A DNA stretch of 64,000 bases from Verrucomicrobiales bacterium (GTDB lineage: Bacteria; Verrucomicrobiota; Verrucomicrobiia; Verrucomicrobiales; DEV007). The DNA lies in contig JARGOD010000002.1 of assembly GCA_029210205.1 (NCBI GenBank), positions 1-64,000 on the forward strand. Reading direction: 5' to 3'. Each line of letters starts with the position of its first letter. Positions within the stretch are counted from its first letter, which is position 1. The position numbers were made by a program, and so were the translations under genes. Of this stretch, positions 43,106 through 64,000 are shown in pieces. The notes beneath the pieces were generated by a model. The model was not told the DNA's origin. It saw only the letters and a list, made by a program, of their open reading frames with translations, and did no database searches.

Positions 43106-44866
43106 TCAACTCGCTTCCGCAGAAAGGAATGCACGCCAGCCACCCAGTTCGGTGATGTCAGTGGAACCTTCCGGGACTGCTGATTCGCAGATGAAGCCGG
43201 TCACAATCTTTCCGCCGGCGAGAGTCAGTTTTCCAAATCCGAGTGGGCTTGGGATTCCCGCGACAAAGGAGCCGAACTGATCTGCCGGAATCGCCCAGCT
43301 TTCGACAGCGATAGAAGCGCCTTTTCCCGCTTCCTTTCGAATAAGACCGGGCCTGGGCGGAAGACCATTCTCGGGGGGCAAGGCCAGGAGCTGGTAGTCC
43401 GATGACGTCGAATCTTCACGCAGAAAGTAAGCGCCGCGATCCGTGAGTTGATGATTGAGAGGAAGGCCTCGCATGTGTGCGCCGCACACAACGACTTCGA
43501 TCCAGTCGTGGGGGAGTGAGTTCTCTGAAGACTCTGCGCCTCCAAAACGGTTTGCGAGATCGAGAAGCGCGTGATCGGAAAGGGCAGGGGCGACGAGTGT
43601 GATTCCCCAGGGCATTCCTTTTGAGGCGAGCCGTCCCGCTGGAATCGCGCAGGCGCTCAGGTCGAGGAGGTTCATGAAATTTGTATAGTAGCCGAGGTTG
43701 GAATTCAGCTGAACCGGCTCGGCCTCGACTTCGGCCGCCGTATAGGCGGTCCCGGCGGTCGGAGTTACGATAAGATCGACAGAGGCCATCACGAGATCGG
43801 CACGGCGTTTCAATTCCTTGAGTTGATACTGTGCACGAAAGCCGTCAACCGCCCGGGGCGCGCCACCTCCGCTGATGATTTTATGCGTCACCGGAAAGAG
43901 GGACTCGGGCTGCGACGTGATAAACTCTTCGATCGCCGCGAAACGCTCGGACACCCAGGGGCCCTCATAGAGGAGAAGGGCGGCTTCGAGAAGAGCGCTG
44001 AAATCAATGGTCACTTTGGTGCCGCCAATCGATTCCAGTTTCGTGACGGCTTCTGTGAAAAGAATTTCCGCTTCAGCATCACCAAAAAACTTGAGCTGTT
44101 CGGCCTGCGGAACACCGAAGGTGAAATTATCTGCAGGGAACCAATTTGTCTGGCTCGGAGCACGAGAGTAGGCGTCATCTGAATCCGGTTGCGCTGCGAC
44201 TGAGAAAACGGTCGCTGCGTCATCCGGGATTTTCGTGAAGATGGAAACGCAGTCCAGCGATCGACATGCCGGAACGACTCCTGCGCAGGAGAGGCTTCCG
44301 AAGGTGGGTTTGAGTCCGATCAATTCATTGAGACCCGCGGGGATGCGGCCCGACCCTGCGGTGTCAGTACCAAGAGAGAAGGTGACGAGATCACGAGCAA
44401 CGGAAACGGCTGATCCTGAGGAAGAGCCACCGGGGATGAAGTCTTCGTTGAAAGGATTCTTTGGAAAACCGTAGGGCGACCGAACCCCGACGAGACCAGT
44501 CGCGAACTGGTCGAGATTGGTTTTGCCCATGGGGATCGCACCCGCTTCGATCAGAAGAGCGACAACCGTGGCGTCTTTGTCAGGATCGTAGGCATAGTCG
44601 GGGCAAGCCGCTGTCGTGGAGTTCCCGGCCAAGTCGATATTGTCTTTGATCGCGAAGGGAATCCCGAAGAGCGGTTTGGTTTGAGACGATTCCCCCTCGA
44701 GATTCCCGAGGATGGATGCCATCCGCTCGTCGGAGGTCAGCGAGATCCAGATCAGGGGATCGGATTCGCTGATCGCGGCTTTGAGCTGATCGACGAGCTT
44801 CGCGGGTGTGAGTTCGCCGCTCGCATACTGAGCATGGAGCGCGGAGATAGAAAGATCGAGTGACAT
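43106..44866 (-). CDS. atzF: Allophanate hydrolase
   Basis: This 586-residue amidase splits allophanate into ammonia and CO2 (via carbamate-type decomposition), the final step of the urea/guanidine carboxylase route. The N-terminal amidase-signature domain has catalytic Lys74 (FAIKDNI), the GGSSSGSA loop at about residues 146-153 and the nucleophile Ser172 in GTDTAGSGR. The C-terminal domain (about 470-586) includes CGAHMRGLPLNHQL and is the allophanate-hydrolase-specific part. It starts 1 bp after the carboxylase stop. Confidence 0.94.
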   Translation of the reverse strand: MSLDLSISALHAQYASGELTPAKLVDQLKAAISESDPLIWISLTSDERMASILGNLEGESSQTKPLFGIPFAIKDNIDLAGNSTTAACPDYAYDPDKDATVVALLIEAGAIPMGKTNLDQFATGLVGVRSPYGFPKNPFNEDFIPGGSSSGSAVSVARDLVTFSLGTDTAGSGRIPAGLNELIGLKPTFGSLSCAGVVPACRSLDCVSIFTKIPDDAATVFSVAAQPDSDDAYSRAPSQTNWFPADNFTFGVPQAEQLKFFGDAEAEILFTEAVTKLESIGGTKVTIDFSALLEAALLLYEGPWVSERFAAIEEFITSQPESLFPVTHKIISGGGAPRAVDGFRAQYQLKELKRRADLVMASVDLIVTPTAGTAYTAAEVEAEPVQLNSNLGYYTNFMNLLDLSACAIPAGRLASKGMPWGITLVAPALSDHALLDLANRFGGAESSENSLPHDWIEVVVCGAHMRGLPLNHQLTDRGAYFLREDSTSSDYQLLALPPENGLPPRPGLIRKEAGKGASIAVESWAIPADQFGSFVAGIPSPLGFGKLTLAGGKIVTGFICESAVPEGSTDITELGGWRAFLSAEAS

Positions 44867-44867
44867 G

Positions 44868-47800
44868 TCAGGATGGTTTCAGAGCAATGAGAAGTTGTCC
44901 CGGCTGCACAGGATCTCCTTCGGAGGCAAAGAGTGACTCCACCGTGCCAGCTTCCGGCGAGGGAATCGTGATTTCCATTTTCATCGCTTCAAGGATGAGA
45001 ACTGGATCATCGGCGGCAACGACATCTCCTGGTTTCACGAGAACCTTCCAGACGGAACCGGCGACGGCGGCTTCGACGGGTTCGCATCCCTCCGGTAACT
45101 CGCTCTCGGGCGGCGCGGCCGCTTCCTCGGCGGTCTCGACGAGCTTCTTGAAAATACCTGCGTCTTCCCAGCGCTGCCGTTCTTCTCGGAAGGAGTTCTG
45201 CTGGGTCGACTGAAAGCTGGAGATCGACTCGACTTCACTTTCGAGAAACTGATTGTAGTTTCGCAGCGAGAAGCTTGTCTCTTCGATCTTCGGATTCCAT
45301 CGACCAATGAGAAAGTCGGCGCGAAGTTGCTGAAGCTCCTCGCCGGAGACTTCGTAGAAACGGATCTGATCAAAGAAGCGCAGAAGCCACGGCTCCTCCT
45401 CAGTGAAGGATGGAGTGACATGAAATTTGTTCCACATCTGTACGGTGCGCCCGACGAACTGATAGCCGCCGGGACCTTCCATACCGTAGATGCAGAGGTA
45501 GGCTCCTCCGATCCCGACAGCGTTTTCCGGCGTCCAGGTTCTCGCTGGGTTGTACTTCGTGGTTACAAGCCGGTGTCTCGGGTCGAGCGGCGTTGCGACT
45601 GGCGCTCCAAGATAAACGTCGCCGAGGCCCATGACGCAGTAGGCGGCGGAGTAGACGATTTCCTTCACCTCGTCGATCGACTCCAAACCATTGACGCGAC
45701 GGATGAATTCAATGTTGCTTGGGCACCAGGGCGCCTCGGGATTGACCGACTGCATGTATTTTTGAATCGCCTCCTGTGTGCTCGGATCGTCCCACGAGAG
45801 AGGCAGGTGCACGATCCGCGCCGGAACCTCGACCGATTCCAGATCGGTGATCGCGGCTTCCGACTCGCGGACCAGCTCGATGACTTTCCCTTGCGAAAGG
45901 CGGTGGCTGTCAAAGTGGACCTGAAGAGACCGAATCCCAGGGGTGAGATCGAGGATGCCGTCGATCTTCTGTTCCTGAAACCACTGGTAGACCACGTGCG
46001 CTTTGAAGCGAAGATTCAGGTCGAGTTTCATCTCGCCGTATTCGATGAGGAGATGGCTTTCTCCGCTCGGCCGAATCGTGACGCCGGGGAGTGATTCGAT
46101 CACTGCGGTTTGAGTTGGTATAGCTTGGGTCTCAGCAGGCTTAGGGTCACTTGAGCCGATGAGTTTCGCGATCGACAAATCTTGTTGGTCGCGCAGAAGT
46201 CTCGCCTCCTCATCCGAGACCGGATGAAACCGGATCGTATCACCTGGATCGACCTGTCCCATCTTCCAGAGATCAGCTTCGATGACGGTAGCAGGACAAA
46301 CAAAGCCACCGAGACTCGGACCATCGGGGCCAAGAACCACGGGCATGTCTCCCGTGAAATCAATCGAACCGACTGCATAGGCATTGTCGTGAATATTCGA
46401 GGGGTGAAGACCGGCTTCGCCTCCGTCCTCGCGCGCCCATGTCGGCTTAGGTCCGATCAGTCGAACGCCGGTTCGCGCAGAGTTGTAGTGGACCTTCCAA
46501 TCCGTCGTGAAGACCATTTCGATGTCTTCCGGAGTAAAAAATTCCGGACAGCCGTGAGGTCCGTAGATGACCGCGATATCCCAGTGCGTCGAGTACGTCG
46601 GGATGAGGCCTTCAGGTGCAGGGAGGGAATCACCCGCGGCCGCATGACCGAGTCTAAGGACGTCGCCGACTCGCAACGCGCGACCTCCGTGACCACCGAA
46701 CTGGCCGAGAGTAAAAGTTGATTTACTGCCAAGGTAATCAGGCACATCCAATCCCCCCTTCACGGCGAGGTAAGCCCGCACGCCAGGATCTTTTCCGCTT
46801 GTTCCGATTTTAAGAACGGAATCTTTGCTAACAGAGATTGGCTTCCCGAAAGAAATAGGCTCTCCGTCCAGCGTCGATGGTAGAGGTGCACCAACGAGTG
46901 CTATCTCGCTCGCTTGATTGAACTTTAAGGTTGGTCCTGACACGGTGATTTCAAGCCCCGCAGTCCCCTCATCATTTCCGACGAGTCGATTCGCAATCCG
47001 GAAGGAAAGAGAATCCATCGGGCCGGAAGGCGGAATGCCGACCTCCCAGTAGCCGATCCGACCGGGGAAATCCTGCACCGTAGTCTGTGTGCCCGAAGCG
47101 AGGACATCGATCGTTGAGGGGGTGTAGTCGAAATCGGCAAGGACGCTCGTGCTCATCGCGCCCGGATCGGCAAAAACATCGCACTGAATGATCTCGCGGA
47201 GATATTCAAGATTGGTTTCGATGCCAGCGATATTTGTTTCTGCAAGAGCAGTAGACATTGCGGCGACGGCTTCTTCACGACTCGGAGCCGTGACCATGAT
47301 CTTTCCGATGAGAGAATCATAGTGCGCCGAGATAACGCTACCGCTTGAAATCCAATGATCGACTCTCGCGTTGTTTGGGAAAATGACTTCAGTGAGGAGG
47401 CCGGATGAAGGCTGGAAATCTTTCGCCGGATCTTCGGCGCAGAGGCGCACTTCGATGGAGTAACCGGACTCGGCGAAGGTGTAATCGATTTCATCGCCAC
47501 CCGCGAGTTTCACCATCCACTCGACGAGGTCCACGCCGGTGACTGATTCGGTGATGCCGTGCTCGACCTGGAGACGCGTGTTGATTTCGAGAAAGTAGTA
47601 TTCGCCGGTGTCGGCATCGACGAGAAACTCAGCGGTCCCGGCACTGCGATAGTTCAGCGCTGCCGCCATCTTTGCGGCGCCTTCGAAAAGATCCGGAGCT
47701 TCTTCACGAGTGAAGCCGGGAGCAGGAGTTTCCTCGACGATCTTCTGGTGGCGACGTTGCGCGGAGCAGTCGCGCGTTCCTAAGGCAACGACATGGCCTT

Positions 47801-48449
47801 TTCCGTCGCCAAACAACTGGACCTCGACGTGGCGGGCACGCTGAATGTATTTTTCGAGAAAAACTCCGCTATCACCGAAGTTCGCTTCGCTGGCACGGGT
47901 AACCCTGTTGAATGCGTCACCCAACCCTGTTGAGTCCTGACAAATCTCCATCCCAATACCGCCTCCTCCTGCGGTGCTCTTGAGCATGACAGGATAGCCG
48001 ATTGCTTCTGCTGCCGTGATCGCTTCATCGACGGAGGTGAGAAGGGCAGTCCCTTCAAGAAGAGGGACGCCGCTGTCTTTGGCTATCTGCCTAGCGGTGT
48101 GCTTTAGGCCGAACTGACGAATCTGTTCTCCCGTGGGTCCGATCCAGGCGACTCCGGCTGCTTCGCATGCCTCCGCGAACGAAGCGTTCTCGGAGAGGAG
48201 ACCGTAGCCCGGGTGTATTCCGTCAGCTCCGGTTTGTGCGGCAATTTCAAGAATGCGTTCCGTTTGCAGATAAGATTCGGAGACCGGAGCGGGTCCAAGA
48301 AGAAACGCTTCGTCAGCGTCGGTGACATGAGGCGCGTCACGATCCGCCTCCGAATAAACAGCGACAGAAGGGATACCAAGAACCTTGAGTGTGCGAATAA
48401 TCCGGCAGGCGATTTCCCCGCGGTTGGCGATAAGAACTTTGGAAAGCAT
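44868..48449 (-). CDS. Biotin-dependent urea/guanidine carboxylase
   Basis: This 1193-residue single-chain carboxylase has a biotin carboxylase domain (about 1-450: [29 protein letters not shown]), the carboxyltransferase halves AHS2 (about 470-790) and AHS1 (about 830-1060), and a C-terminal biotinyl domain with EAMKMEI near residue 1155. It carboxylates urea to allophanate or, in the widespread bacterial form, guanidine to carboxyguanidine. Two adjacent DUF1989 proteins favour guanidine. The segment SIDFTGD has Asp where I recall Asn in fungal urea carboxylases; this needs an alignment. The upstream 93 residues of open frame are out-of-family and were excluded. BirA at 20.9 kb should biotinylate it. 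Confidence 0.93.
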
Positions 48450-48460
48450 GATGGGTGAGC

Positions 48461-49093
48461 TCAGTCCCAGATGAGAACCTCGACAGGAGTGGGGTTGTAG
48501 GCGTTGCAGGGATTGTTGAGCTGCGGGCAGTTGGAAATCAAGGCGATGACATCCATTTCCGCGACCATTTCGACGTAGCGACCGGGGGCGGAAATTCCGT
48601 CGGCGAAGGTGAGTTTGCCATCGGGAGTGACGGGGACGTTCATGAAAAAGTTGATGTTGTTCGTGATGTCCCGCTTCCCGAGGCCCTCGCCCCATTCGAT
48701 CACCCCGCAAAGAAAGGAGTCGCGACAAGCGTGCATGGGTTCCTTGTCGAGCGAGTAGCGCATCGTGTTCGACTCGCGCGAGCAGGCGCCGCCAACGGTG
48801 TCGTGGCGACCGCAGGTGTCCGCAGTGATCGTGAGAAGTTCGTTGCCCTCTGTCGACATCAGGGTCGTGCCGGCAGTGAGGTAAAGTGCGGCCTGATTTC
48901 GAATCGTGACATCGGCGGCGTATCGATCAGTCGGGTCGTTCGCGTTGTAGAAAAGCGTGTCAGCGGCCTGATTGCCCTCGAGGTCGAGAATGCGAAAGGT
49001 CTGGCCTTTGCTGATCTTGCGCATCCAGTGATCACCGGCTTCGATGACTTCACGATAGACGGCGTCTTCGGGAGAATAAGATGATTCAGTCAT
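48461..49093 (-). CDS. DUF1989 protein, urea-carboxylase-associated protein 2 (CgdB/A-like)
   Basis: This 210-residue protein contains [26 protein letters not shown]-type residues, [37 protein letters not shown] and [16 protein letters not shown]. These are the DUF1989/UAAP2 hallmarks. The Cys and His in CGRHD are likely metal or catalytic ligands. In characterised systems the two DUF1989 subunits form carboxyguanidine deiminase, making allophanate from carboxyguanidine. It is 11 bp upstream of the carboxylase and 3 bp downstream of its paralogue. Confidence 0.9.
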
Positions 49094-49096
49094 GGC

Positions 49097-49822
49097 TCAG
49101 GAACGCAGGGCGTAGTAGTCCTCTGTGTTGATAAAAGCCCGCTCGTTCTCGGGCCGGGAGAGGCGGCAGGGATCGTCCGCTGCGACAGGGTCGGCATCGA
49201 AGACTTCGAGCTTTACTGGCTTGGGTGCATAGGTCGTGTTCGGATCGAGCGGATGTTGGCAGGAGGTCAGGACCACCAGCGTATCCATTTCAAAACGGAG
49301 TTCGACGACGGATCCCGCAGCCGACGCACCATCGACATAACTGAGATGCCCTCCGTCATTGGAGACGACTTTCGAGAAGAGATTCAAATTCGGAACGATA
49401 TCCTTCTTTCCGAGTCCGTGCTTTCCTAACTCGATCAGAAAATTTTCACGCGCGTTCCGGTAAAAATCATTCCGCGCAATTTGGTAATTGTGCTCGCCAT
49501 ATTTCTCACGGACCAACTTCGCATCGGTGCAGCCGCAAACGCTGTCATGCCAACCGGCAGTGTCCTTGATGATCGAACAAAAGAGGCGGCCCATGTCGGA
49601 ATGCAGGCAATGTCCTTCGGTGAGCTGAAAGGTGTGCTGCCCTTTCAGCGTGTCGGGCATGTTGTAACGCTCGATCGGCTCGTCGGCATTGTAGAGGAGG
49701 GTGCTGACATTCGCGCCACCTTCAAGATCGGTGAGTCTAAGAACCTTGCCTCGACGGATTGTCTGCGACCACATCCCTCCGCCGGGAACAGTCTTCGCGT
49801 AAATGATTTCAGGCTCGCTCAT
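49097..49822 (-). CDS. DUF1989 protein, urea-carboxylase-associated protein 1
   Basis: This is a 241-residue paralogue of the preceding DUF1989 protein: [52 protein letters not shown] and a C-terminal [17 protein letters not shown]. The last element is typical of UAAP1. Together the two should form the heteromeric carboxyguanidine deiminase. The ATG at 49822 is used; an upstream TTG would add 8 residues. A copy of a dispersed repeat (49852-49899) lies just before it. Confidence 0.9.
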
Positions 49823-49851
49823 GGGGTGGGCGCTTTGCGCTGTCAAAAGTG

Positions 49852-49917: not shown

Positions 49918-50358
49918 CTACTCGCCTGGAAATGGGTGGATCGGTGGGATGAGGAGTGACATCATGACGAGGCGTCCCGACTTCACTCCCTTACAGGTGA
50001 TAAGCTTGTCGGCGATCATTTTGAGACGTCTCGCCGGGCCCTGCACGAGAATGACTTCCATGGTGTGGTCTTCTTCGAGGAGGATGTGCTGCGAGCTGAT
50101 GACTTCGTCGATGTATTCCCGCTCGATCGCAGCGAGTTGGGGAAGGAGTCCCGACTTTGACTCGTCGTAAAAGAGCGTGATGGTCCCGGCCATCATTTCC
50201 GTGCCGCGTTGCTTGTAATGCTCGATCAAGCTGGCATTGATCATCTCCGCGACGGCCTGCGAGCGATTCGTGAATCCGCGCGCTTTCACGAGATTATCCA
50301 ACTCGTTGTAGACTCCGTTCGGCAGAGAAATACTGATTCGTTTAACACCTTTTTCCAA
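49918..50358 (-). CDS. NikR-family repressor without a canonical nickel site
   Basis: This 146-residue regulator has an N-terminal ribbon-helix-helix (about 5-45: [35 protein letters not shown]) and a C-terminal ACT-like NikR domain. An ungapped 38-residue match to E. coli NikR puts Arg80, His91, Leu93 and Thr99 at the nickel ligands His76, His87, His89 and Cys95, so three of four are lost. It likely senses something other than nickel. The start is a TTG at 50358 with a GGAGG sequence 5 bp upstream. A palindrome with NikR-operator geometry lies 47 bp upstream. It heads the DUF1989-carboxylase-allophanate hydrolase genes. Confidence 0.85.
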
Positions 50359-50404: not shown

Positions 50405-50434
50405 AGTAATACTTTTAAGCAAAATAGTATTACT
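50405..50434. promoter_or_regulatory. NikR-type operator palindrome
   Basis: AGTAATACT (50405-50413) and AGTATTACT (50426-50434) are exact inverted repeats with a 12-bp spacer. Read as GTAATA-N16-TATTAC it is 28 bp long, identical in layout to the E. coli NikR operator (GTATGA-N16-TCATAC). It overlaps the stop of the upstream gene and precedes the NikR-like gene, so autoregulation is likely. Confidence 0.75.
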
Positions 50435-51104
50435 AACTAACTTTCGGCGTCATACTCACTCGACGCACGAGGCGAAAGCCGACATTGTCGCGCTCGCTCG
50501 TGTCAGGAATCTCATCACTCCAGGAGCATCGTAACAGTCTTGGTAGATAGTCCCAGGCTCCCCCCCGGATCTGGTGGGAACCGGCCAGTCGTCCGGACTC
50601 GTTCGTCCACTCGCAGACGTTCCCGAGAAGGTCATAAATGCCGAATGCGTTTCCCGGATAGCTTCCCGTCTTTGTCATGGAGCCGGGTCCGATTCTCTGG
50701 ATCGATTCGTCGAAGAGGAAGTTCGCATCCGTTGGGCTGAGCGTGTCAGAATCGGGGAAAACTGAGTCCGTCCCCGCGCGGGCGGCATGCTCCCATTCAA
50801 GAGCAGAGGGGAGATCCCAACTTTCATCTTCGCTTTCTTTCCTAAGCCATCGAATGAAGCTCATCGCATCATCCCAGCTGATTCCATATGCAGGGAGCTC
50901 GTCATCGACTTCCTCGAACCGACCCGGCTCAAACGACTGCCATTCGGCCACGGTGACGGGAAACTTGCCAATCTCAAAAGGGCCGTCAACTTCACACCAT
51001 CCCCCAAGGGGTTCGCCTGCGTTCGCGAACTTGTCGTTTGGGGAAGATCCAATCCAGGTTCTTCCGCCTTCGAGAACGACCATTTCAGGAAGAGTAATCG
51101 TCAT
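50433..51104 (-). CDS. FGE/SUMF1-fold protein, copy 1
   Basis: This 223-residue protein is a formylglycine-generating-enzyme (sulfatase-modifying factor) domain: GGRTWIGSS, FPVTVAEW, GISWDDAMSFIRWL, LPSALEWEHAARAG, GNAFGIYDLLGNVCEWT, RGGAWDYLPRLLRCSWSD and NVGFRLVRR. The two copper-binding cysteines of true FGE, expected just after the RGGAW position, are absent, so it is unlikely to make formylglycine. It also lacks the DinB iron domain of EgtB. It might be a binding or accessory subunit. Its start overlaps the upstream gene (ATGA). Confidence 0.85.
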   Translation of the reverse strand: MTITLPEMVVLEGGRTWIGSSPNDKFANAGEPLGGWCEVDGPFEIGKFPVTVAEWQSFEPGRFEEVDDELPAYGISWDDAMSFIRWLRKESEDESWDLPSALEWEHAARAGTDSVFPDSDTLSPTDANFLFDESIQRIGPGSMTKTGSYPGNAFGIYDLLGNVCEWTNESGRLAGSHQIRGGAWDYLPRLLRCSWSDEIPDTSERDNVGFRLVRRVSMTPKVS

Positions 51105-51961
51105 GCATCAAAGTTAGTTTCGAGACGACGACCCGGATCTTCACGAACCCAATCCGCGATCTCTGATCCGGTCGCTATCCACGCATCTCCTGTCTTGACG
51201 ATGTCGTTGAGAAGTCGCTCGAGAAGTTTCACCCGCGACGGGCGACCGCTGAGCCATGGGTGCAATGTCAGGACAAAGCAGCAGCCGTAATCACGCATCG
51301 CAGTGAATTCATCCCACCAAAGGCGATAAACCTTTTCACAGTCCTCCGGAATGAAGCCCCACGCCGGGTCAGCATTGAAGGCGAACTGTTCCCAGTCTTC
51401 GAGCATCCATTGACCCGGAATCTCGACGAGTCCGTTACCGTGGATGAAAGGCACGTCGTCAGCCATCATGCTGGCGTTGTAGACAAACCCTTCGCGCACA
51501 AGAAGATCGGTCGTCCCCGGGTTAATCTCGAACCAGGGAGCGCGGAATCCAGCGGGCCGCTTCCCTGTCACGGATTCGAGAATGCCAAGACTCTTGAGCA
51601 GGACCTCCTCTTCCTCGGCCGGAGAAAGGTCGGCAAGCTTTTCGTGAAGATGTCCATGGGCTCCGATCTCATGACCGTCCTCGAGAATCGCCGCAGTCAT
51701 CTTTGGATGATGCTCGACAATGTAGCTCGGAATGAAAAATGTCGCCGGGAGCCCGAGATGTTTCATGAGGCCGAGAAGACGTGGCACCGCCACGGTCGGG
51801 CCATACTCGCACTGTGACATCGTCGTGAGACGCGAAGCGAGCGCGGGATCCTCGGAGAGAGCCGTGGTTTCGCCGTCGACATCGAAGCAAATCATGACGG
51901 CACACTTTTTGCCGTGAGGCCAAAGATGCCGAGGTGGCGGTGTATACGGAGTCGCTGCCAT
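51101..51961 (-). CDS. NodB-type polysaccharide deacetylase/amidohydrolase
   Basis: This 286-residue protein has a NodB homology domain: FDVDGE (catalytic and metal Asp), HEIGAHGHLHEKL (metal His), FRAPWFEINPGT and LTLHPWLSGRPSRV. Relatives include PuuE-type allantoinase and other C-N hydrolases that act on small cyclic or acylated nitrogen compounds, as well as glycan deacetylases. There is no signal peptide, and the nitrogen-catabolic neighbourhood argues for the former. It is sandwiched between the SDR and FGE-like genes with 2-bp and overlapping junctions. Confidence 0.87.
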   Translation of the reverse strand: MAATPYTPPPRHLWPHGKKCAVMICFDVDGETTALSEDPALASRLTTMSQCEYGPTVAVPRLLGLMKHLGLPATFFIPSYIVEHHPKMTAAILEDGHEIGAHGHLHEKLADLSPAEEEEVLLKSLGILESVTGKRPAGFRAPWFEINPGTTDLLVREGFVYNASMMADDVPFIHGNGLVEIPGQWMLEDWEQFAFNADPAWGFIPEDCEKVYRLWWDEFTAMRDYGCCFVLTLHPWLSGRPSRVKLLERLLNDIVKTGDAWIATGSEIADWVREDPGRRLETNFDA

Positions 51962-55648: not shown

Positions 55649-56839
55649 TTATTTTCCGTATCCTTTGCCGATGAGCGTCTTCATCGGTCCAACAGCGATA
55701 CCGGATTCCATGGGGTGACTTTCCTTGACCATTCCGAACTTGATCCACCAGTCGTTGGTGATCTTCCAGTGGGTGGCGATATGCCCGTTCTTACCGAAAG
55801 GAGGAGTTCCCTCCATGAGGCCGTAGAACTGAGCGGCGTCGGTGAAGTTGAATGGATAGATGCCACCGTCCTCGGAGCTGCCGTCAGCGCCGATCACGAG
55901 TTCGACATCTTCGATCGGGAACTGAAGCCCCTTCGCAATGATGGCATTTCCCTCTGCCGGATTCTCTTCCCAGAACTTCACCGCTTCGAAGTAGGCTTTC
56001 ACGGTGAGAGCGGCGACGTTCTTCTTCTTCATGAACGCTTTGCTCATATACATTCCGTCCGCGAGTAGCGCAGTTTCCTTGTAGTAAGGGTCTTTTGAAG
56101 TGGCGGCGACGGTGGCGTCGGGAAGTGCCTTGAGAACGTTGCTGCCGAAGGGTTCCCAGAATTCGCCAGCGGCGACTTTACCACTGACCATCGCGGCGAC
56201 CGCGTCGTCCATGATCAAGTTCGTGTATTTCACCTGATCAAAAGCGACCCCGTTCTCTTCGAGCCATATCCCCATGTAGATCTGCGTGAGGCCACCTTCG
56301 AGAACGGCAACTTCTTTCCCGATGAGATCTTTAGCGGACTCGACGCCAGGAGCTAGAATGATCTTATCTGTTCCGTAAGACGGATTCGTGTAGGCAACCA
56401 TCTGAACGGGAACGCCTTCTTCTGCAGCGATTGGTCCATATTCGACGGTGGAGGAGGTGACGTCGAGTTGGCCGGCTGCCATGAGGCCGAAGCTCTCGTA
56501 GGGATCTTCGATGATCTGAATGTCGAGATCGATCCCGGGAACGAGATTCTTCTCTTTCGCGATGAACCAGAAGCCGTAGCCTGGCCACGAGAAAAGCGAG
56601 ACCTTGACCTTGGCGGGTGCCTTCGCCGGTTTCTCAGCGACTTCAGGTTTCGGCTCCGCAGGGGCGGGAGCTGGCTCCGGTTCAGCCGGCGCTTCCGGAG
56701 CAGGAGCCGGTTCGGCTGCGGCTTCCTCAACTTCCGGTTCTTCCGGCGGGGCGGGATCGCCTGAGCAGGATGTGAGGGCGAAGAAGGCTGCCAGTGACAT
56801 GAATGCCCCGGCTCGCATTAGGTAGTGTTTTACTTTCAT
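55649..56839 (-). CDS. ABC transporter substrate-binding lipoprotein (NitT/TauT-like)
   Basis: This 396-residue lipoprotein has a signal peptide with lipobox LTSC (Cys25), a 50-residue Glu/Pro/Ala-rich spacer (about 27-77), then a type 2 periplasmic binding fold of the SsuA/TauA/NrtA group: VKVSLFSWPGYGFWFIAKEK, QLDVTSSTVEYGP, GKEVAVLEGGLTQIYMG. The ligand is a small nitrogen- or sulfur-containing organic compound; here an amine or guanidino compound is likely. It pairs with the permease 19 bp upstream. Confidence 0.92.
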   Translation of the reverse strand: MKVKHYLMRAGAFMSLAAFFALTSCSGDPAPPEEPEVEEAAAEPAPAPEAPAEPEPAPAPAEPKPEVAEKPAKAPAKVKVSLFSWPGYGFWFIAKEKNLVPGIDLDIQIIEDPYESFGLMAAGQLDVTSSTVEYGPIAAEEGVPVQMVAYTNPSYGTDKIILAPGVESAKDLIGKEVAVLEGGLTQIYMGIWLEENGVAFDQVKYTNLIMDDAVAAMVSGKVAAGEFWEPFGSNVLKALPDATVAATSKDPYYKETALLADGMYMSKAFMKKKNVAALTVKAYFEAVKFWEENPAEGNAIIAKGLQFPIEDVELVIGADGSSEDGGIYPFNFTDAAQFYGLMEGTPPFGKNGHIATHWKITNDWWIKFGMVKESHPMESGIAVGPMKTLIGKGYGK

Positions 56840-56858: not shown

Positions 56859-57716
56859 TTAGTCTCGATAGAGATAGCGAAAGCAGAGGCGGTGGATGAG
56901 CCTGAAGACAAGGTCAAAGAGGAGCCCGAGAAGTCCGATCACGAGGATTCCGGCGAGAATGTCCTCTACCCTGACAAAACGCTTAGCACGCATCATCATG
57001 GCGCCGATCCCATCGGTCGCAGCGACGATCTCCGCGATGACGAGGTAGGTCCAGCTCACCGCTAACATTTGTCTCGCGGTGTCAAGGTAACTGGGCAGCG
57101 CTGACGGAAGAATAACCCGCCAGAGAACGTTCCCCCGTTTTGCACCGAGCGTTCGGGAGCACTCAACGATCTCGGTTCGGACCGCCTTGGTGTTGTCCAT
57201 GAAAAGAGTGACAAGGAACCAAACGACCCCGAGAACAAGGAGAGCGATCTTTTGCCCGTCACCGGTTCCGAGCCACATGAGAAGAAGGGGAACAAAGGAG
57301 GGGGCCGGCAGGTAGCGGAAAGGGGAAACAAGCGGATTCAGAAAGCCCTCAGCGACAGGGAAAGTGCCCATGAGCATTCCAAGCGGGAGCGCAATCAAGA
57401 GTGCGATCGTGAAGCTGATCAGGATCCGCTTCACGCTCATGAGGACATCCATGCCGAACGCTTGTGTCGCGAAGAGATCGTAGAGAGCGGTGGCCACTTT
57501 CGCAGGCCCGGGAAAGAGCGCATCAGGCGTGAATGAGGCAGCAGCCAGAAAATGCCAGCCTAACAGGAAGCTAATCCAGGCAGCAATCGCGAGAACAACT
57601 TGAAGAACTTTTCCGATCGGCTTTTTGAACTCAAAGAGAGAAAAGAACGAAAATCCCGAGACCGGCTTCTCCGGACTTAGGGCAACGGGTGGCTCGGCTG
57701 TAGTGACTGATGACAT
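56859..57716 (-). CDS. ABC transporter permease (NitT/TauT-like)
   Basis: This 285-residue inner-membrane permease has about six helices and the EAA-type loop ECSRTLGAKRGNVLWRVILPSALPSYLDTARQML, typical of SsuC/TauC. It works with the lipoprotein at 55.6 kb and the ATPase at 63.1 kb. The first 35 residues are a Pro/Ser-rich cytosolic tail. A 186-bp gap with a large inverted repeat precedes it. Confidence 0.94.
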   Translation of the reverse strand: MSSVTTAEPPVALSPEKPVSGFSFFSLFEFKKPIGKVLQVVLAIAAWISFLLGWHFLAAASFTPDALFPGPAKVATALYDLFATQAFGMDVLMSVKRILISFTIALLIALPLGMLMGTFPVAEGFLNPLVSPFRYLPAPSFVPLLLMWLGTGDGQKIALLVLGVVWFLVTLFMDNTKAVRTEIVECSRTLGAKRGNVLWRVILPSALPSYLDTARQMLAVSWTYLVIAEIVAATDGIGAMMMRAKRFVRVEDILAGILVIGLLGLLFDLVFRLIHRLCFRYLYRD

Positions 57717-57902: not shown

Positions 57903-59261
57903 TTAGAACAGTCGGGCATAGCGATCGATCTCCCATTGGGAAACGGTTTGGTGATACTGGCGCCACTCCTCGGACTTATAGGTGATGAACTCATCCTTAA
58001 GTTCCTTGCCTAACACTTCTTCAATGAACGGGTCGCTCGCAAACTCGTTCACGGCTTCGTTGAGGTCACGGGGGAGTTCCTGAATTCCGGCGTCGGCGAG
58101 TTGCTGCGGTGAGTATTCGTAGAGGTTCTCCTCCTGAGCATCACCGGGATCAATTCCTTCGCGAATCCCTTCGAGACCAGCCGCGAGGACGAGGGTCGCA
58201 GCGAGGTAGGGATTGCACGCTGCATCAGCATTCCTAGATTCAACCCGTCCACCTCCCATGGGGACGCGGAGGGCGTTGGTGCGGTTGTTCTTCCCGTAGC
58301 TGTTGAAGACGGGCGCCCAGCTGTAGTAGGACATGAGACCACGTCGAACGAGACGTTTGTAGCTGTTCACGGTCGGAGCGAATGCGGCACAGATCGCGGG
58401 ACCATGCTTGAGGACTCCGCCGACGAACTGGTAGCCCAGCTCGGTGAGGCCGAGCCCGCGCGGGTCTTCTGATGGATCGCACTCAAAGAGGTTCTTTCCT
58501 GTCTCCGGATCGTAGAGCGACATATTGAAGTGTGCGCCGGATCCCGTCTTATCCGCGAAAGGCTTCGGCATGAAGGTCGCAAGGAGCCCCTCTTCGGCAG
58601 CGTAGTGCTTGGCCATCATCCGGAAGAAGATGAAACGGTCACACATCGTGAGGGCGTCGGCGTATTTGAAGTCGAATTCGAACTGCGAGTTCGCGTCTTC
58701 GTGGTCGAGCGAATAGAGATCCCAGCCGAGGTCATTGATGACGGTCGAGACTTTGTCGAGCCACTCATAGCGATCCATGAATCGCTTCACGTCATAGCAG
58801 GCCTTCTCAAGATTGTCGTCGTCGTTCGGAATCTCAAGGGTTCCCTCCTCGGTATACTTCACGACGAAGACTTCGCACTCGATGCCTAGATTCATGCCAA
58901 ATCCCATTTCCTTCGCCTGCGCCAGCACCTTCTTCAGAGCGACCCGTGTATTGATCTCGTAGGGTTCTCCTTTGAAGGTGTTATCGGCCGGGTAGAAAGC
59001 CACTTCCTTGTTCCAGGGAAGAATCGTTCCCCGTTCGAGATCCGGGACTGAAGCAATCTCGTCATCGTTCGGGCTCTGGCCGAGACCGTCAAGAGCGTAG
59101 CCAGTGTAGAGTTCAGAGCCCTGCGCAAAATGAACGAAGTGATCGATGGGAACGAACTTTCCCTTGGGAACGCCGTGAATATCGACATAGGCGCCGACAC
59201 AATATTTGACGCCTTTAGCTTTGAGGTCGTCGCGGAGGGAGATGAGTTCTTCTTTGGTCAT
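57903..59261 (-). CDS. Glutamine-synthetase family ligase, type III-like, copy 1
   Basis: This 452-residue GS-fold ligase resembles GlnT/GmaS-type enzymes ([23 protein letters not shown] start). The glutamate/ATP residues are visible: [65 protein letters not shown] and NPYLAATL. Members make glutamine or gamma-glutamyl amides of small amines such as methylamine; the real substrate cannot be told. A dispersed repeat lies 38 bp before its start. It has a paralogue at 60.9 kb. Confidence 0.9.
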
Positions 59262-59298: not shown

Positions 59299-59347
59299 AA
59301 AGGTAAAAGGTGGGAAGGTTTTTTGGTGTGGCGGGCTGGTGCCCGCC
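59299..59347. repeat. Dispersed repeat with hairpin, copy B
   Basis: The first 24 bp are identical to copy A (49852-49875). The second part is a perfect hairpin, GGCGGGC-TGGT-GCCCGCC (59330-59347). It lies between the Rieske stop and the GS-like start, 38 bp in front of the latter. Confidence 0.75.
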
Positions 59348-59355
59348 GTTTTTAG

Positions 59356-60717
59356 TTAGTGGTTTCCTTGTGCGGGAGCCGGAGCTCGGTCGAGGGTCGG
59401 CCAGGTTCCACGCGCTCTTGCGGCGAGAAATCGCTGGATGAGCCAGATCGGCATTTCGAGGTGGCTGAGGCGCCCCCGCTGATAGCCGGAAGTGTAGAGG
59501 CCGCGCTGAACAGCCATGCAGACCTCCATGTCTTCGAGGTGAAAATCGATCGCAGCCTGGTTGCCCTTTTCTTTCATCGACTCATATTCAGGGTGCTCCA
59601 GCGTCGAGTCGGGAACGAGAATCGTCGTGAGCAGCTTGAGGCGGTCGGGCCCAAGGGGCTCGATGCGATACCAAATGAAGGAGTCGGGCGTCGTCACAAA
59701 AGTGAAAAGAGGGAATCCCAAACCAAGACCCCACTCGAAACGCTCGTCCTCGTTGAGCCCTTCAATCGGTGGAAAAATGTCCCAGCGTTTCCCTTTCTCT
59801 TCGAGAGCTTTGATCTCTTCGCGCAACGCTTCTTTCATCGGGAGATGACAGCGGATGTGGGAAGGTTTTTCCTCCTCCGTCCAGGTGTCACGGGCGGGCA
59901 TCATGGGCTGGAGCGTCTTACTGTGCGCTCCGGCGTGGTGATACGACTCCATGAAATTCTCGCCGAGGACTTTCCAGTTGAAGGCGCAGTCCCATTCGTT
60001 CGACGAGATGAGCTTCATCTCCCCGGTCTTCCAGGGAGCGATTGACTCATTCAGCGAGGCATATTTTTCGGCGACGGTTTGCGGAGCCTTTCCGTCGAGG
60101 TTGAGGAAGAGAAACCCGTTCCAGACTTCGGAGCGGAATTCCCGAAGCTTCCAGTCATCGCGGATGAAGTCTTCGGCTTCGCCCATCTCGGCGCAGGCTT
60201 TGAGCTGGCCATCGAGTTCGAAGGTCCAGAAGTGGTAGGGACAAAGAAAGAAGCGGGTTTTCCCGCAGCCGGATTCCCCCTCTCTGACCTCTGCGGGGCT
60301 GTGTCCATCGTGTCCGAAACCGGGAGGCATGATGTCCATGGCCCGGTGCGGGCAGACCCGGGAAAGAATGCGGTATTGCCCATCCTTGTCTTTCACCGCG
60401 ATCATCGGTTCTCCGAGGAGATCGAGGTTAATGAAGTCGCCCGCTTCCGGAAGCTGGGAGATATGCGCAACCGCATACCAGTCATTCTTAAAGATGTTTT
60501 CGACTTCCCAGTTGAAGAACTCGCCGCTCGTGTAGGCCTGCGCGGGGAGGGTCGTGCTTTGTGAAAGCGGAAGGTCGGCGATGCGTTGGATCTCTTCGAG
60601 AATCTCCGATACCGAGAGTTCAGGTTGAGCGTTGGGGATCGTTCCCCGATAGCCCTGTCCGGGCGAAGTCGCGGGCAAACAGGCCTCGCGGATGTCGGAT
60701 TCGGTGACGTCTTTCAT
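59356..60717 (-). CDS. Rieske oxygenase alpha subunit, copy 2
   Basis: This 453-residue paralogue of the oxygenase at 52.7 kb has Rieske ligands Cys122, His124, Cys159, His162 (CPHRAMD and CPYHFW). The iron site has His260 and His265 in ENFMESYHHAGAH with Asp in FHLEDMEVC, and bridging Glu257 again replaces the usual Asp. It has an extra N-terminal stretch of about 30 residues. The two enzymes may act on successive methyl groups or on different substrates. It is transcribed ahead of the GS-like gene at 57.9 kb. Confidence 0.93.
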   Translation of the reverse strand: MKDVTESDIREACLPATSPGQGYRGTIPNAQPELSVSEILEEIQRIADLPLSQSTTLPAQAYTSGEFFNWEVENIFKNDWYAVAHISQLPEAGDFINLDLLGEPMIAVKDKDGQYRILSRVCPHRAMDIMPPGFGHDGHSPAEVREGESGCGKTRFFLCPYHFWTFELDGQLKACAEMGEAEDFIRDDWKLREFRSEVWNGFLFLNLDGKAPQTVAEKYASLNESIAPWKTGEMKLISSNEWDCAFNWKVLGENFMESYHHAGAHSKTLQPMMPARDTWTEEEKPSHIRCHLPMKEALREEIKALEEKGKRWDIFPPIEGLNEDERFEWGLGLGFPLFTFVTTPDSFIWYRIEPLGPDRLKLLTTILVPDSTLEHPEYESMKEKGNQAAIDFHLEDMEVCMAVQRGLYTSGYQRGRLSHLEMPIWLIQRFLAARARGTWPTLDRAPAPAQGNH

Positions 60718-60892
60718 GGAAAAATAAGATAGAAATTATAGGAATGTTAGGATATTGAATAAGGGAATGGCGGGATCGCCTTGTTGTCATGCCCTTCAAC
60801 AACCCAGAAACACAGCGCAACACAGAGTGATCCCGAGCTGCCGGAGCAGTTCGTTTGCAGGGATCGTCTTAGGTGCTGATTTCATCTTTAAT
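60718..60892 (-). other. 175-bp gap between the second GS-like gene and Rieske copy 2
   Basis: No strong hairpin or recognisable riboswitch is visible. A 29-codon open frame (60796-60885, minus strand, starting MKSAPKTIPANELL and ending in a hydrophobic Cys-containing stretch) begins 7 bp after the upstream stop. It has no obvious Shine-Dalgarno support and is probably not a gene. The gap likely holds an internal promoter, being AT-rich near 60720-60760. Confidence 0.35.
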
Positions 60893-62317
60893 TCAAACGT
60901 GAGTGAGAAACTGATTGAGCTGTCGGTCGTGGATAGGATAGAAGGATTGCTCCCACTCCCAGCGCTTCTGCTTGAGAAAAATTTCCTTCATTTCGCCTAG
61001 AACGCCTACAGTGAACGGATCATCTTCAAAAGCATCGAGAGCTTCTTTCAGTGTCGCGGGAAGGAAGTTGATGCCTTCCTTCTTCAGTTCCGCACGACTG
61101 AGGTTATAGGCGTTCGCATTGATCGGTTCGCCCGGGTCCAGTTCCTGCTCGATGCCGTCAAGGCCGGCCGCAAGGTGCATCGCAGCGGTCAGGTAGGGAT
61201 TGTTCGACATGTCAGGGGCCCGATTCTCAACGCAGTAGCGATTCTGTGGAAGGCGGAGCATGGCAGAGCGGTTGTTGCGTCCGTAGGCAGCCAGGACGGG
61301 TGCCCAGCTGATGTCCGGCATATCGCCCTGAGCGATGAAGCCCTGGTAGCTGTTGTAAGTCGGCGAAGAGACTGCAGTGATCGCAGGCGCATGCTTGAGG
61401 ACTCCCGCAATAAAATGAAAGGCGAGCTTTGAGAGTGGGATCCCAAGCTTCTCCGCAAAGGGATTCGATTCTGACTCAGGTGTGAAGAGGTTCTCTCCGG
61501 TTTCGAGACTCGCGAGTGACATGTTGTTGTGACAGCCGGAGCGAGCGTCATCCGCGAATGGCTTCGGCATGAAGGTCGCGACCGCCCCGATTGATTCGGC
61601 GACCTGTTTCGCCATGACCCGGAAAAAGGTGAGGCGGTCGGCGGTGGTGAGCGCGTCGGCATAACCGAAGTCGAACTCGTACTGACCATGGCCACCTTCC
61701 TGATCGAAAGAGTAAAGGCCCCACTCGAGTTCACGCAGGCAGTCAGAGAAAGGCTCGAGGAAATCCATCGAACCAAAAGACTGATTGATGTCATAGGAGG
61801 GACAGACTCCGCGATAGCGGTGCGTGGGAAGTTGCTCCCATTTCCCTGTATCTCCGTTCTCCTTAAGGACATAGAATTCGGGTTCGACGCCGAGATTGAA
61901 CTTCAACCCCATTGCGTTAGCGCGCTCGAGTTGGCGTTTCAAAACCTGACGGCTGTCGTTCTCGTAGGGGGCTCCGTGGTAATAGAGATCCCCGAAAAAG
62001 TAAGCGAAGCGATTGTCCCACGGACACACGATTGCCGTGTCGAGATCGGGGACGGCGGCGCATTCGTCGATCTGCGGGCCGACGAGTCCCATGCCTTCGA
62101 GAGCACCCACCGTGAACAGCTCGGAACCATTCGCCATTTTCTCAAGACACTCGATCGGATTGATCTTCGCCTTGGGGACGCCGTGGATATCGACATAGCT
62201 GGAAAAAAGATACTGAACTCCTTTTGCGCCCAGCTCTTCCTTCAGCGCCGAAACCTTTTCCGCGTCGGCAGAGAAACCGTCGGGGACTGCGAATACCGGT
62301 GTTTTGGAATCAGTCAT
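60893..62317 (-). CDS. Glutamine-synthetase family ligase, type III-like, copy 2
   Basis: This 474-residue paralogue of the ligase at 57.9 kb has [54 protein letters not shown] and NNRSAMLRLPQNRYCVENRAPD. In place of the GSGxH of copy 1 it has RSGCH, suggesting a different amine or acceptor. It starts 2 bp after the creatininase-family stop, so the two should be co-translated and may act in sequence. Confidence 0.9.
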   Translation of the reverse strand: MTDSKTPVFAVPDGFSADAEKVSALKEELGAKGVQYLFSSYVDIHGVPKAKINPIECLEKMANGSELFTVGALEGMGLVGPQIDECAAVPDLDTAIVCPWDNRFAYFFGDLYYHGAPYENDSRQVLKRQLERANAMGLKFNLGVEPEFYVLKENGDTGKWEQLPTHRYRGVCPSYDINQSFGSMDFLEPFSDCLRELEWGLYSFDQEGGHGQYEFDFGYADALTTADRLTFFRVMAKQVAESIGAVATFMPKPFADDARSGCHNNMSLASLETGENLFTPESESNPFAEKLGIPLSKLAFHFIAGVLKHAPAITAVSSPTYNSYQGFIAQGDMPDISWAPVLAAYGRNNRSAMLRLPQNRYCVENRAPDMSNNPYLTAAMHLAAGLDGIEQELDPGEPINANAYNLSRAELKKEGINFLPATLKEALDAFEDDPFTVGVLGEMKEIFLKQKRWEWEQSFYPIHDRQLNQFLTHV

Positions 62318-62319
62318 CT

Positions 62320-63102
62320 TCAGGTTGAAGGAAGGTTGAGAGATTCCCAGTGGTGTGACTCGAGAGGGGTAGCCTCTGTCTTTGCTGTCTCAATGAAAGA
62401 GGCGAGTGCTTCGGACATCTCCTCAAAGAGTTTCTTGCCGCGGGGGGCATCTCCGAGCGAAGGGCTCCCGGTGATTCCGTTGAGGCTCGTCTGTGCGACG
62501 GGATAACTGAAAACGGTGCCTTCGGTCCGGTCAGGATCATCTTCGACGAGGTCCATGCGGACCGTCTCCGGAGCGAGATGAAGCAGGAGATCGGTTTCCG
62601 CCTTGTTGGCATGTAAGTCATCCGCATCGGAGATGAAATAGGACCAGATCTCGTCGGAAAGCTGAAAGGTGTTCTTCAGTCCGATTTGAAGATCTCCAAA
62701 AAAGCGGAGACGGATTTTCTCGATCGCAACGCGAAGTGAAGCGTCATTCCCGAAGTGGCTGTTGACGAGAAGAATCTTCTTCCACCCTGTCGCGACGGCC
62801 CAGTCGGCGAGTTCTTCAATCTGGTGAATGAAGGTCTCGTGGGTGAGTGAAAAAGTTCCCGGCCACTTGTTCGTGTGGCCTGAGGAAACTGTGTAGGCGA
62901 TTGTCGGAAGGATCGGAATGCCGGCTTTGGCGCAGGCAGCTTTAGAGATCGACTCAGCGATAACCGTGTCACAATTGATCGGCAAGTGCGGACCGTGCTG
63001 CTCGGTTGCCCCAATCGGAAGGATTAAAAACCCATCAGTCTGATCACGGACTTTCGCGACCTCGGGCCACGAGAGTTCTTCCAGTCTGATCGCTGCTTCC
63101 AT
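62320..63102 (-). CDS. Creatininase-family amidohydrolase
   Basis: This 260-residue enzyme of the creatininase/MftE/ArfB superfamily has metal ligands in ATEQHGPHLPINCDT (Glu34, His36, Asp45), NSHFGND (His) and HANKAETDLLLHL (Glu). The usual NGHGGN is NSHFGN here. Members hydrolyse creatinine, formamides and peptide-like amides. The ATG at 63102 was chosen over a TTG at 63141, since it gives the family start IRLEELSWPEVAK. It lies 19 bp after the ABC ATPase gene and directly precedes a GS-like gene. Confidence 0.9.
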   Translation of the reverse strand: MEAAIRLEELSWPEVAKVRDQTDGFLILPIGATEQHGPHLPINCDTVIAESISKAACAKAGIPILPTIAYTVSSGHTNKWPGTFSLTHETFIHQIEELADWAVATGWKKILLVNSHFGNDASLRVAIEKIRLRFFGDLQIGLKNTFQLSDEIWSYFISDADDLHANKAETDLLLHLAPETVRMDLVEDDPDRTEGTVFSYPVAQTSLNGITGSPSLGDAPRGKKLFEEMSEALASFIETAKTEATPLESHHWESLNLPST

Positions 63103-63121
63103 GAGATTAGGTTTGGAAGGA

Positions 63122-64000
63122 TCACTCGACGTCGTCTCCAAGTGGTGTCATCCGCGGGAAAGGAAGATTGTCCTGATGACGTTCGCTTTCTGGGTGTATG
63201 AGCTGATTGATGTGGTGCTTCGTCGCAATAAACTCCGGCTCGATAAATTGATCGAGGTTTCGCGGACGCGGCACCGGGACCTCCAGAATCTCATCGACCT
63301 CTCCCGGGTTCGCCTTCAGAACCAATATTCGATCTGCGAGGTAAATCGCCTCATCAAGATCGTGGGTGATGAAGAGAATGGTGATATCGAGGTTGCGCCA
63401 AATCTGAAGAAGGTAGCTCTGCATCTGTGCACGGGTCTGTGCATCGAGTGCGCCGAATGGCTCATCCATAAGGAGAATGCGCGGGCGATTTGCGAGTGCC
63501 CTTGCGATGGCGACCCGCTGCTTCATGCCGCCTGACAACTGGTGCGGGTAGCTATTCTCGAATTGGGAGAGCCCGACCAACTCAATCCATTGTCGTGCGT
63601 CTGCTTCAACGCCTGCCTCCTTATGGCCGGCCATCTTCGGCCCGAACATGACATTTTGCTTCACCGTGAGCCATGGGAAGAGGGTGTAGGACTGGAAGAC
63701 CATCCCGCGGTCGGGGCCAGGTCCCGCCACCGGATTTCCATCAAGGAGGACAGCGCCGCTCGTTTCTGTCTCGAGCCCGGCGAGGATTCGGATGAGGGTT
63801 GACTTTCCGCATCCGGAAGGCCCTATCACACACATAAACTCGCGTCGATAGACTTCAAAGTCGACTGACTTAAGTGCTGTGACGTCACCGTTTCTTGAAG
63901 GGAATACTTTAGTTAGGTCGTCGACTGAAAGAACGACAGGCCGCTCCTTCAATTTCGTAAAACGTTCGCTTACTTCCGGGGACTGAGCGTGGTAATCAAT
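63122..64000 (-). CDS. ABC transporter ATPase (NitT/TauT-like), 5' end outside window
   Basis: This is an ABC ATPase of the SsuB/TauB/NrtD group: Walker [12 protein letters not shown]-loop [13 protein letters not shown], signature LSGGMKQR, Walker [13 protein letters not shown] and the H-loop THDLDEA. An internal TTG at 63952 could start it, but the reading frame stays open to the window edge (...[22 protein letters not shown]), so the true start is probably beyond 64000. It energises the permease and lipoprotein encoded 6 kb downstream. The C-terminal 40 residues extend beyond the core domain. Confidence 0.92.

Follow-up and report, generated by a model that had tools for sequence, protein, structure and literature searches.

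The DNA analysed here, referred to below as the window, is a stretch of 64,000 nucleotides from a Verrucomicrobiales bacterium (assembly GCA_029210205.1, contig JARGOD010000002.1, positions 1 to 64,000). It carries a block of 18 consecutive minus-strand genes (43106-63952, Table 1), in which the genes of a guanidine carboxylase pathway stand beside those of two Rieske oxygenases (RO1, RO2), two glutamine synthetase (GS)-like ligases, two proteins with the fold of the formylglycine-generating enzyme (FGE), a TIM-barrel protein, a short-chain dehydrogenase (SDR) and a NikR-like regulator. All 18 genes were recovered with the families named in the initial annotation, as judged by Pfam and NCBIfam profiles, except that the TIM-barrel gene matched no family in either and has its fold backed by a predicted structure. 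The block does not end with the window. The genes of a permease (PERM1) and a substrate-binding protein (SBP1) continue the run across the window edge and bring its true extent to 20 genes. Based on the gene coordinates and adopted starts, 11 of the 17 in-window junctions overlap or are shorter than 20 bp, and the remaining six measure 186, 175, 94, 74, 71 and 41 bp. The block is not a chance arrangement, because much of it and of its gene order recur in other genomes. The link between the guanidine half and the Rieske half is strong, and the block presents a known pathway, newly extended and probably co-regulated.

Table 1. Genes and predicted operators of the block and of its continuation past the window end (for the latter, window-equivalent positions)
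Feature	Position	Strand	Basis
AH, allophanate hydrolase	43106..44866	-	Pfam Amidase + AH_C; TIGR02713 above cut-off
GC, guanidine carboxylase (urea carboxylase family)	44868..48452	-	TIGR02712 1804.8 bits; signature Asp residues
DUF1989 UAAP2, predicted carboxyguanidine deiminase subunit	48461..49093	-	TIGR03424 328 bits, above cut-off; role from known pathway
DUF1989 UAAP1, predicted carboxyguanidine deiminase subunit	49097..49846	-	TIGR03425 351 bits, above cut-off
NikR-like regulator (ribbon-helix-helix and NikR_C), most nickel ligands lost	49918..50358	-	Pfam NikR_C
Predicted operator GTAATAC-N14-GTATTAC upstream of NikR-like gene	50406..50433	.	Exact-pattern search
FGE2, FGE-fold protein without conserved cysteines	50433..51104	-	Pfam PF03781
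NodB-fold hydrolase (allantoinase PuuE / 3rxz-like)	51101..51961	-	Pfam PF01522; PDB 3rxz 237 bits
SDR dehydrogenase	51964..52707	-	Pfam
RO2, Rieske oxygenase, amine-demethylase-like	52749..54005	-	Pfam; PDB relatives 3vca, 4qup, CntA
TIM-barrel isomerase-like protein	54023..54877	-	AlphaFold2 model, fold matches
FGE1, FGE-fold protein without conserved cysteines	54886..55629	-	Pfam; model nearest PvdO
SBP2, substrate-binding protein, SsuA-family-like	55649..56839	-	Pfam NMT1; NCBIfam
PERM2, ABC permease, TauC/SaoP-like	56859..57716	-	Pfam; NCBIfam
GS2, type III GS-like ligase, nearest glutamate-methylamine ligase	57903..59261	-	TIGR03105 619.7 bits, above cut-off; PDB 9qur 385 bits
RO1, second Rieske oxygenase	59356..60717	-	Pfam; 47% identical to RO2
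GS1, second GS-like ligase	60893..62317	-	TIGR03105 442.3 bits, below 469.6 cut-off; PDB 9qur 290 bits
CRN, creatininase-family hydrolase, unlikely to be a true creatininase	62320..63141	-	Pfam PF02633; TIGR04448 120.9 vs cut-off 235
ABC ATPase, nitrate/taurine type	63122..63952	-	Pfam
PERM1, permease	64044-65438 (L002:44-1438), past window end		Named from sequence
SBP1, substrate-binding protein	65515-66531 (L002:1515-2531), past window end		Sequence + weak PDB matches
Second exact predicted operator, before SBP1	66580-66608, past window end		Exact-pattern search

The guanidine half could be assigned from signature residues and family profiles. The start of the carboxylase gene most likely lies at 48452; a longer reading frame, to 48728, would enter the neighbouring gene. 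According to the accessible part of PMC11410670, guanidine carboxylases require an Asp at the position of K. lactis residue 1584, and an Asp at 1330 divides the guanidine type from the urea type. After alignment to the K. lactis urea amidolyase (5i8i), with positions counted by hand along the alignment rows, the window protein shows D698 and D945 opposite residues 1330 and 1584, which in 5i8i itself are Asn1330 and Asp1584. The guanidine-type Asp pair is present in 25/25 aligned carboxylases, including that of the window, and in 19 of 20 further carboxylase loci. The exception (L093, G223:C4) has an Asn at the first signature position and adjoins an allophanate hydrolase gene, while no CgdA/CgdB or NikR match was found nearby. 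It is probably a true urea carboxylase, a second copy beside the guanidine carboxylase of the same genome, and its urea-type residue and missing companions make it an internal contrast for the guanidine-type assignment. The signature residues support guanidine, not urea, as the predicted substrate of the window enzyme. Of the two substrates proposed earlier (guanidine or urea) only the former is retained, and a true urea carboxylase was set aside. The carboxylase is accompanied by CgdA, CgdB and allophanate hydrolase, all above their cut-offs (TIGR03424, TIGR03425 and TIGR02713). Since both DUF1989 proteins pass the UAAP1/UAAP2 cut-offs, the guanidine-to-ammonia gene set is complete. The initial annotation had counted them among several enzyme families in duplicate; they are a UAAP1/UAAP2 pair, read as the two subunits of carboxyguanidine deiminase.

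The two halves are associated well beyond this genome. Among 74 genomes of the family of the window, 24 carry both the Rieske protein and the carboxylase, one the Rieske protein only, three the carboxylase only and 46 neither (Fisher p 3.9e-15, the relatives not being independent); the sole Rieske-only genome rests on a doubtful match of 29% identity. An even sample of the phylum, comprising 337 genomes, contained six with this Rieske type (E up to 1e-80), 39 with the carboxylase and five with both, and in the sixth Rieske genome (G405) the carboxylase gene is cut by the contig end. The loci nearest by Rieske protein belong to Verrucomicrobiales metagenome-assembled genomes. When the 24 family genomes and five phylum genomes were combined, leaving out G052, 16 of the 29 Rieske-bearing genomes had the two genes no more than 14 kb apart on a shared contig, a lower bound because the assemblies are broken. 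A constant separation of the halves in related genomes, named beforehand as the result that would speak against a joint block, was thus not found; this proximity, together with an operator common to both halves, bears out the link that had been proposed. In a quick tree built from 45 carboxylases, seven changes account for the distribution of the Rieske label, compared with a mean of 15 after shuffling. The trait is clustered on the carboxylase tree, yet it was gained or lost repeatedly, and with seven changes the pairing is more than a single accident of inheritance.

The upstream sequences share an inverted repeat, GTAWTAC-N14/15-GTAWTAC. In the whole source genome it occurs exactly twice, before SBP1 and before the NikR-like gene, where a third half-site with one mismatch comes next, reaching 50455. 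Over the 74 genomes, the N15 form gave seven sites, all before SBP1, and the N14 form gave 12, namely seven before NikR in the loci mapped, one before SBP1, one in L059, ahead of a NikR gene that starts at a contig end, and three unplaced (G060, G062 and G070:C55); with the pattern reversed as a control, 3 and 4 genomes gave a match. With up to one mismatch, 41 sites were found in 69 loci (1.19 Mb), overlapping pairs being treated as separate sites. The site of L059 is one of them, and the other 40 lie at most 250 bp ahead of a NikR, SBP1 or SBP2 gene; each of 11 control heptamers gave 0-3 sites. With up to two mismatches a site precedes 20 of 24 NikR, 8 of 10 SBP1 and 2 of 7 SBP2 genes. The operator has the geometry of the E. 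coli NikR box, GTATGA-N16-TCATAC (PMC7055735, accessible part), and a joint box, GTAWKA-N16/17-TMWTAC, was present with up to one mismatch in 49/67 upstream regions versus 36/3350 shuffles. The exact E. coli box occurs before SBP1 and NikR in L036 (L036:2994-3021, L036:11747-11774) and before NikR in L041 (L041:12269-12296).

The halves certainly lie apart in four genomes (G024, G031, G049 and G078); in the first three, all from one genus, they are on different long contigs or 40 kb apart on one. In these three, the operator precedes SBP1 in the Rieske operon as well as NikR in the carboxylase operon, with no more than one mismatch. In G027, G030 and G034 an exact site precedes SBP1 on a contig other than that of the carboxylase; here assembly breaks are possible, since the halves of G027 and G030 end at contig edges and NikR of G034 lies about 390 bp from one.

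The NikR-like protein encoded in the window passes the NF003381 NikR equivalog cut-off (112.2 vs 105), not TIGR02793. The nickel ligands of E. coli NikR are His76, His87, His89 and Cys95 (PMC7055735, accessible part). In the window protein His87 is kept and the other three positions read Arg, Leu and Thr, respectively; among 42 NikR-like proteins His76 is found in 9, His87 in 32, His89 in 5 and Cys95 in none, and no protein has all four. A nickel-responsive NikR was set aside on the lost ligands, although the NF003381 cut-off was passed. The NikR-like protein would control both parts and sense guanidine or a relative. No guanidine riboswitch was detected at the Rfam gathering threshold in the window, L002 and 21 further loci (23 stretches). 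Two guanidine operons (L086 and L095) have no NikR-like match and, by Rfam, no guanidine riboswitch either. The NikR-like proteins of L036 and L041 lack the nickel cysteine despite the exact E. coli-type boxes on their guanidine operons.

The oxygenases are closest, among solved structures, to stachydrine/proline-betaine and carnitine oxygenases (nearest relatives of RO2: 3vca, 4qup and CntA). C116, H118, C140 and H143, presumably the Rieske cluster ligands, and H241, H246 and D374, presumably those of the iron, are invariant in 42/42 aligned RO1/RO2 proteins, and the GbcA equivalog cut-off of 670 is missed by both RO2 (145.6) and RO1 (116.6). Formylglycine-generating enzyme has two copper-binding cysteines in its active site. 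No Cys is found among the conserved positions of the FGE-fold proteins (29 sequences), and the predicted structure of FGE1 is nearest PvdO (TM 0.77); a true FGE was set aside on the lack of conserved cysteines. The AlphaFold2 model of the TIM-barrel protein (pLDDT 88.9) is a xylose-isomerase-like barrel that matches sugar epimerases, IolE and AsbF, the best matches being mostly at TM 0.5-0.64 with 8-16% identity. Residues E134, H136, D162, H165, H191 and E243 are invariant in 17 sequences. As the fold comparison reaches the superfamily level only, no reaction was assigned.

Both GS-like ligases have 9qur, named a glutamate-methylamine ligase, as their closest solved relative. Of the two type III ligases annotated initially, GS2 lies above the type III cut-off and GS1 below it. 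The creatininase-like proteins keep conserved Glu, His and Asp residues (20 sequences); in the window protein NSHFGN takes the place of the creatininase stretch NGHYEN, with loss of a Glu that we take to be a metal ligand. This change and the score far under the TIGR04448 equivalog cut-off led us to set aside a true creatininase. The chemistry that the family names creatininase, FGE and NikR would suggest is not indicated by the residues and cut-offs. What had been described as an ABC importer is present as two binding protein/permease pairs with one ATPase. The PDB search gave no solved relative of SBP2 by sequence and weak ones only for SBP1, and no ligand was therefore assigned to either.

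Comparison of gene content points to a modular make-up (all counts are lower bounds, being taken from stretches of limited extent). A base unit, SBP1-PERM1-ATPase-NikR-CgdA-CgdB-carboxylase-AH, is found with gaps in 19 carboxylase-bearing genomes that have no Rieske gene (SBP1 in 18, NikR in 17, CgdA and CgdB in 19 each, AH in 16). Between 30 Rieske-bearing genomes and these 19, the counts are 28 vs 0 for FGE, 27 vs 0 for TIM, 26 vs 4 for the creatininase-like gene, 21 vs 4 for GS2, 17 vs 0 for GS1, 18 vs 0 for NodB, 17 vs 1 for SDR, 20 vs 0 for SBP2 and 26 vs 17 for NikR. In G131, G235, G264 and G309 a creatininase-like gene and GS2 are added without a Rieske gene. Besides the guanidine genes, the minimal operon of L037 comprises only a single importer, FGE, TIM and Rieske; neither GS nor a creatininase-like gene occurs in its 16.5 kb. 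The creatininase-like/GS pair and the Rieske, FGE-fold and TIM-barrel cassette thus join the base unit independently. The initial reading changes here, for the first importer, and sometimes the creatininase-like gene and one GS, also belong to guanidine operons of genomes lacking this type of Rieske gene.

On this evidence, the block may be read as a single guanidine regulon with an added Rieske cassette, which would release guanidine oxidatively from N-alkylguanidines, a reading to which we give an even chance. Methylguanidine, guanidinoacetate/creatine or a similar guanidino compound would be imported, and the Rieske oxygenase would hydroxylate the carbon adjoining the guanidino nitrogen. 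The TIM-barrel protein, the FGE-fold protein or both may aid the break-up of the carbinolguanidine into guanidine and an aldehyde, which the SDR dehydrogenase would deal with; guanidine would be carboxylated, deiminated and hydrolysed to ammonia and CO2, and the GS-like ligases could take up freed methylamine or ammonia. The NikR-like protein, its nickel site broken, would bind the predicted operator before both parts with guanidine or a relative as signal. In its most specific form, the proposal is that a nickel-blind NikR-like factor senses guanidine or an alkylguanidine and, via GTAWTAC-N14/15-GTAWTAC, drives a guanidine-cleaving pathway of Rieske, FGE-fold and TIM-barrel proteins in Verrucomicrobiota; this is put forward tentatively, as a real possibility.

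Several observations weigh against an extended guanidine regulon. The Rieske proteins are akin to quaternary-amine demethylases and not to known guanidine enzymes, and no Rieske reductase is found in the block, PF00970 giving no match in 2/5 genomes and weak ones in 3/5. Only 6 of 32 loci fetched with RO2 have a carboxylase in the stretch, all six verrucomicrobial, compared with 0/17 of the non-verrucomicrobial loci; 19 of the fetched genomes were searched, 17 having a carboxylase over the cut-off, G009 one in pieces and G013 none. The latter, a cyanobacterium, has a Rieske protein of 49% identity. Four gammaproteobacterial loci carry Rieske, GS and the second importer without adjoining guanidine genes. 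The joint box is missing from 18 of the 67 upstream regions, two of them shortened by contig ends, and in G078, whose halves are 55 kb apart, no site precedes SBP1 and that before NikR has two mismatches. A SoxG-type subunit of N-methylglutamate dehydrogenase is taken here as the marker of a GmaS partner; SoxG (PF04268) was found in 0/7 Verrucomicrobiota vs 3/7 proteobacteria, one of those strongly, and its absence from all seven counts against the methylamine route. The FGE reading frame of the minimal operon contains a stop (L037:5071-5868) and the Rieske match of G307 one TGA (G307:C2:88534-89712), each due either to decay or to assembly error. Finally, 19 genomes have the base unit and no cassette, so that the latter could act on a separate, co-regulated compound.

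This last thought leads to a somewhat unlikely but serious alternative, that the halves are co-regulated and chemically separate, the Rieske/GS half acting on a methylated or quaternary, betaine-like amine and the other on guanidine with no shared intermediate. It would account for the betaine and carnitine enzymes among the relatives of RO2, the kinship of GS2 to glutamate-methylamine ligase, the gammaproteobacterial clusters and the presence of a second importer. It sits less well with the Verrucomicrobiota, in which the Rieske protein occurs only once, by a doubtful match, in a genome without guanidine carboxylase, and with the minimal operon, in which the cassette has a single importer and otherwise only guanidine genes beside it. 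Glutamylation as the opening step, with GS joining the substrate amine to glutamate and the Rieske enzyme oxidising the gamma-glutamyl product as in aniline/1-naphthylamine degradation, is improbable. A GS acting ahead of a Rieske enzyme has a precedent (PMC11335346, accessible part), and GS1, RO1 and GS2 are neighbours in the window, but the Rieske gene of L037 does without GS, GS2 does without Rieske in the four genomes named above, and no GAT-like gene is among the window genes. The glutamate ligation proposed in the initial annotation does not, on the gene content of L037 and these four genomes, seem obligatory for the Rieske part. Least probable is a creatinine/creatine breakdown in which CRN would open creatinine and the Rieske enzyme would demethylate creatine to guanidinoacetate, from which guanidine and glyoxylate would follow. 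The creatininase fold with its conserved residues agrees with it, as does a D-2-hydroxyacid dehydrogenase gene adjoining TIM in Roseibacillus (L017:13539-14564), whereas the low equivalog score and the altered NGHYEN stretch speak against it. D-2-hydroxyacid dehydrogenases include glyoxylate reductases, and the Roseibacillus gene would fit glyoxylate as a product, though it is no proof of it.

The block shares with the guanidine carboxylase pathway the carboxylase, CgdA/CgdB and allophanate hydrolase, the signature residues and an ABC importer. It differs by its Rieske, FGE, TIM, GS and creatininase-like genes and by a NikR-like gene with its operator where no riboswitch was found (window and 22 loci). 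Riboswitch control of that pathway is frequent, not obligatory. A precedent for the proposed release is MgdH/MgdL of Vreelandella boliviensis, in which, as far as the accessible text of PMC12508155 goes, an oxygenase and a lyase are added to a guanidine carboxylase operon and convert methylguanidine to guanidine, the lyase hastening the decay of the surprisingly stable N-(hydroxymethyl)guanidine. The likeness lies in an oxygenase and a second protein joined to such an operon. That system has a 2-oxoglutarate dioxygenase, a lyase modelled as a beta-barrel and riboswitches, whereas Rieske, FGE-fold, TIM-barrel and NikR-like proteins are found here, and no 2-oxoglutarate/Fe(II) dioxygenase was found by Pfam among the 18 window genes.

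The Rieske amine demethylases CntA, GbcA and Stc2 are the nearest solved relatives, with the Rieske and iron ligands kept here; the scores far under the GbcA cut-off and the gene company are different. With the aniline/1-naphthylamine dioxygenase systems (PMC11335346, accessible part) the block shares a GS-like ligase and a Rieske enzyme in one operon, and it differs in the missing GAT-like gene, in GS being nearest glutamate-methylamine ligase and in the independent occurrence of the parts. The NikR nickel regulator is alike in domain order and operator geometry (two half-sites about 16 bp apart), down to the exact boxes of L036 and L041, and unlike in its nickel ligands and in the placement of the gene on guanidine operons. 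The homarine/N-methylglutamate pathway was also considered as a model and rejected, no gene-level match being seen among the matches listed. Searches of the open-licence literature found nothing on NikR together with guanidine carboxylase, and none of the matches listed places NikR alongside guanidine, urea carboxylase or carboxyguanidine. For Rieske with methylguanidine only work unrelated by its abstract was returned, one match for Rieske with guanidine carboxylase proved unrelated in its accessible part, and the matches listed for Rieske, creatininase and Verrucomicrobia look unrelated by title and the start of the abstract.

If true, the proposal would describe a new route to the nitrogen of guanidine-containing compounds and the first guanidine-sensing regulatory protein, for which a candidate protein and DNA site can be named. 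It would give a role to FGE-fold and TIM-barrel proteins lacking an assigned function, and add a Rieske-based release of guanidine. Roseibacillus persicicus KCTC 12988 is a named strain with a compact joined operon (L017/L050).

Some further features of the loci were recorded. In Roseibacillus, a Peripla_BP_4 gene and the D-2-hydroxyacid dehydrogenase gene lie between FGE and TIM (L017:12718-14564). The gammaproteobacterial clusters are L015, L026, L029 and L034, two of the four with TIM; L026 has, besides TIM, a fatty-acid-desaturase-like gene, a TetR regulator and an alpha/beta hydrolase. In the three gammaproteobacterial genomes searched, a carboxylase, of either the guanidine or the urea type, is encoded elsewhere in the genome. 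The source assembly is 87% complete (4.9 Mb, 195 contigs), and the contig of the block measures 104 kb. Upstream of the 20-gene run, SBP1 is followed by a plus-strand gene, which we take to be lgt, and the other flank is formed by a convergent citrate synthase gene (41900-43033). The sole tRNA detected in the window is a tRNA-Leu with anticodon AAG (35839-35921), an anticodon uncommon in bacteria.

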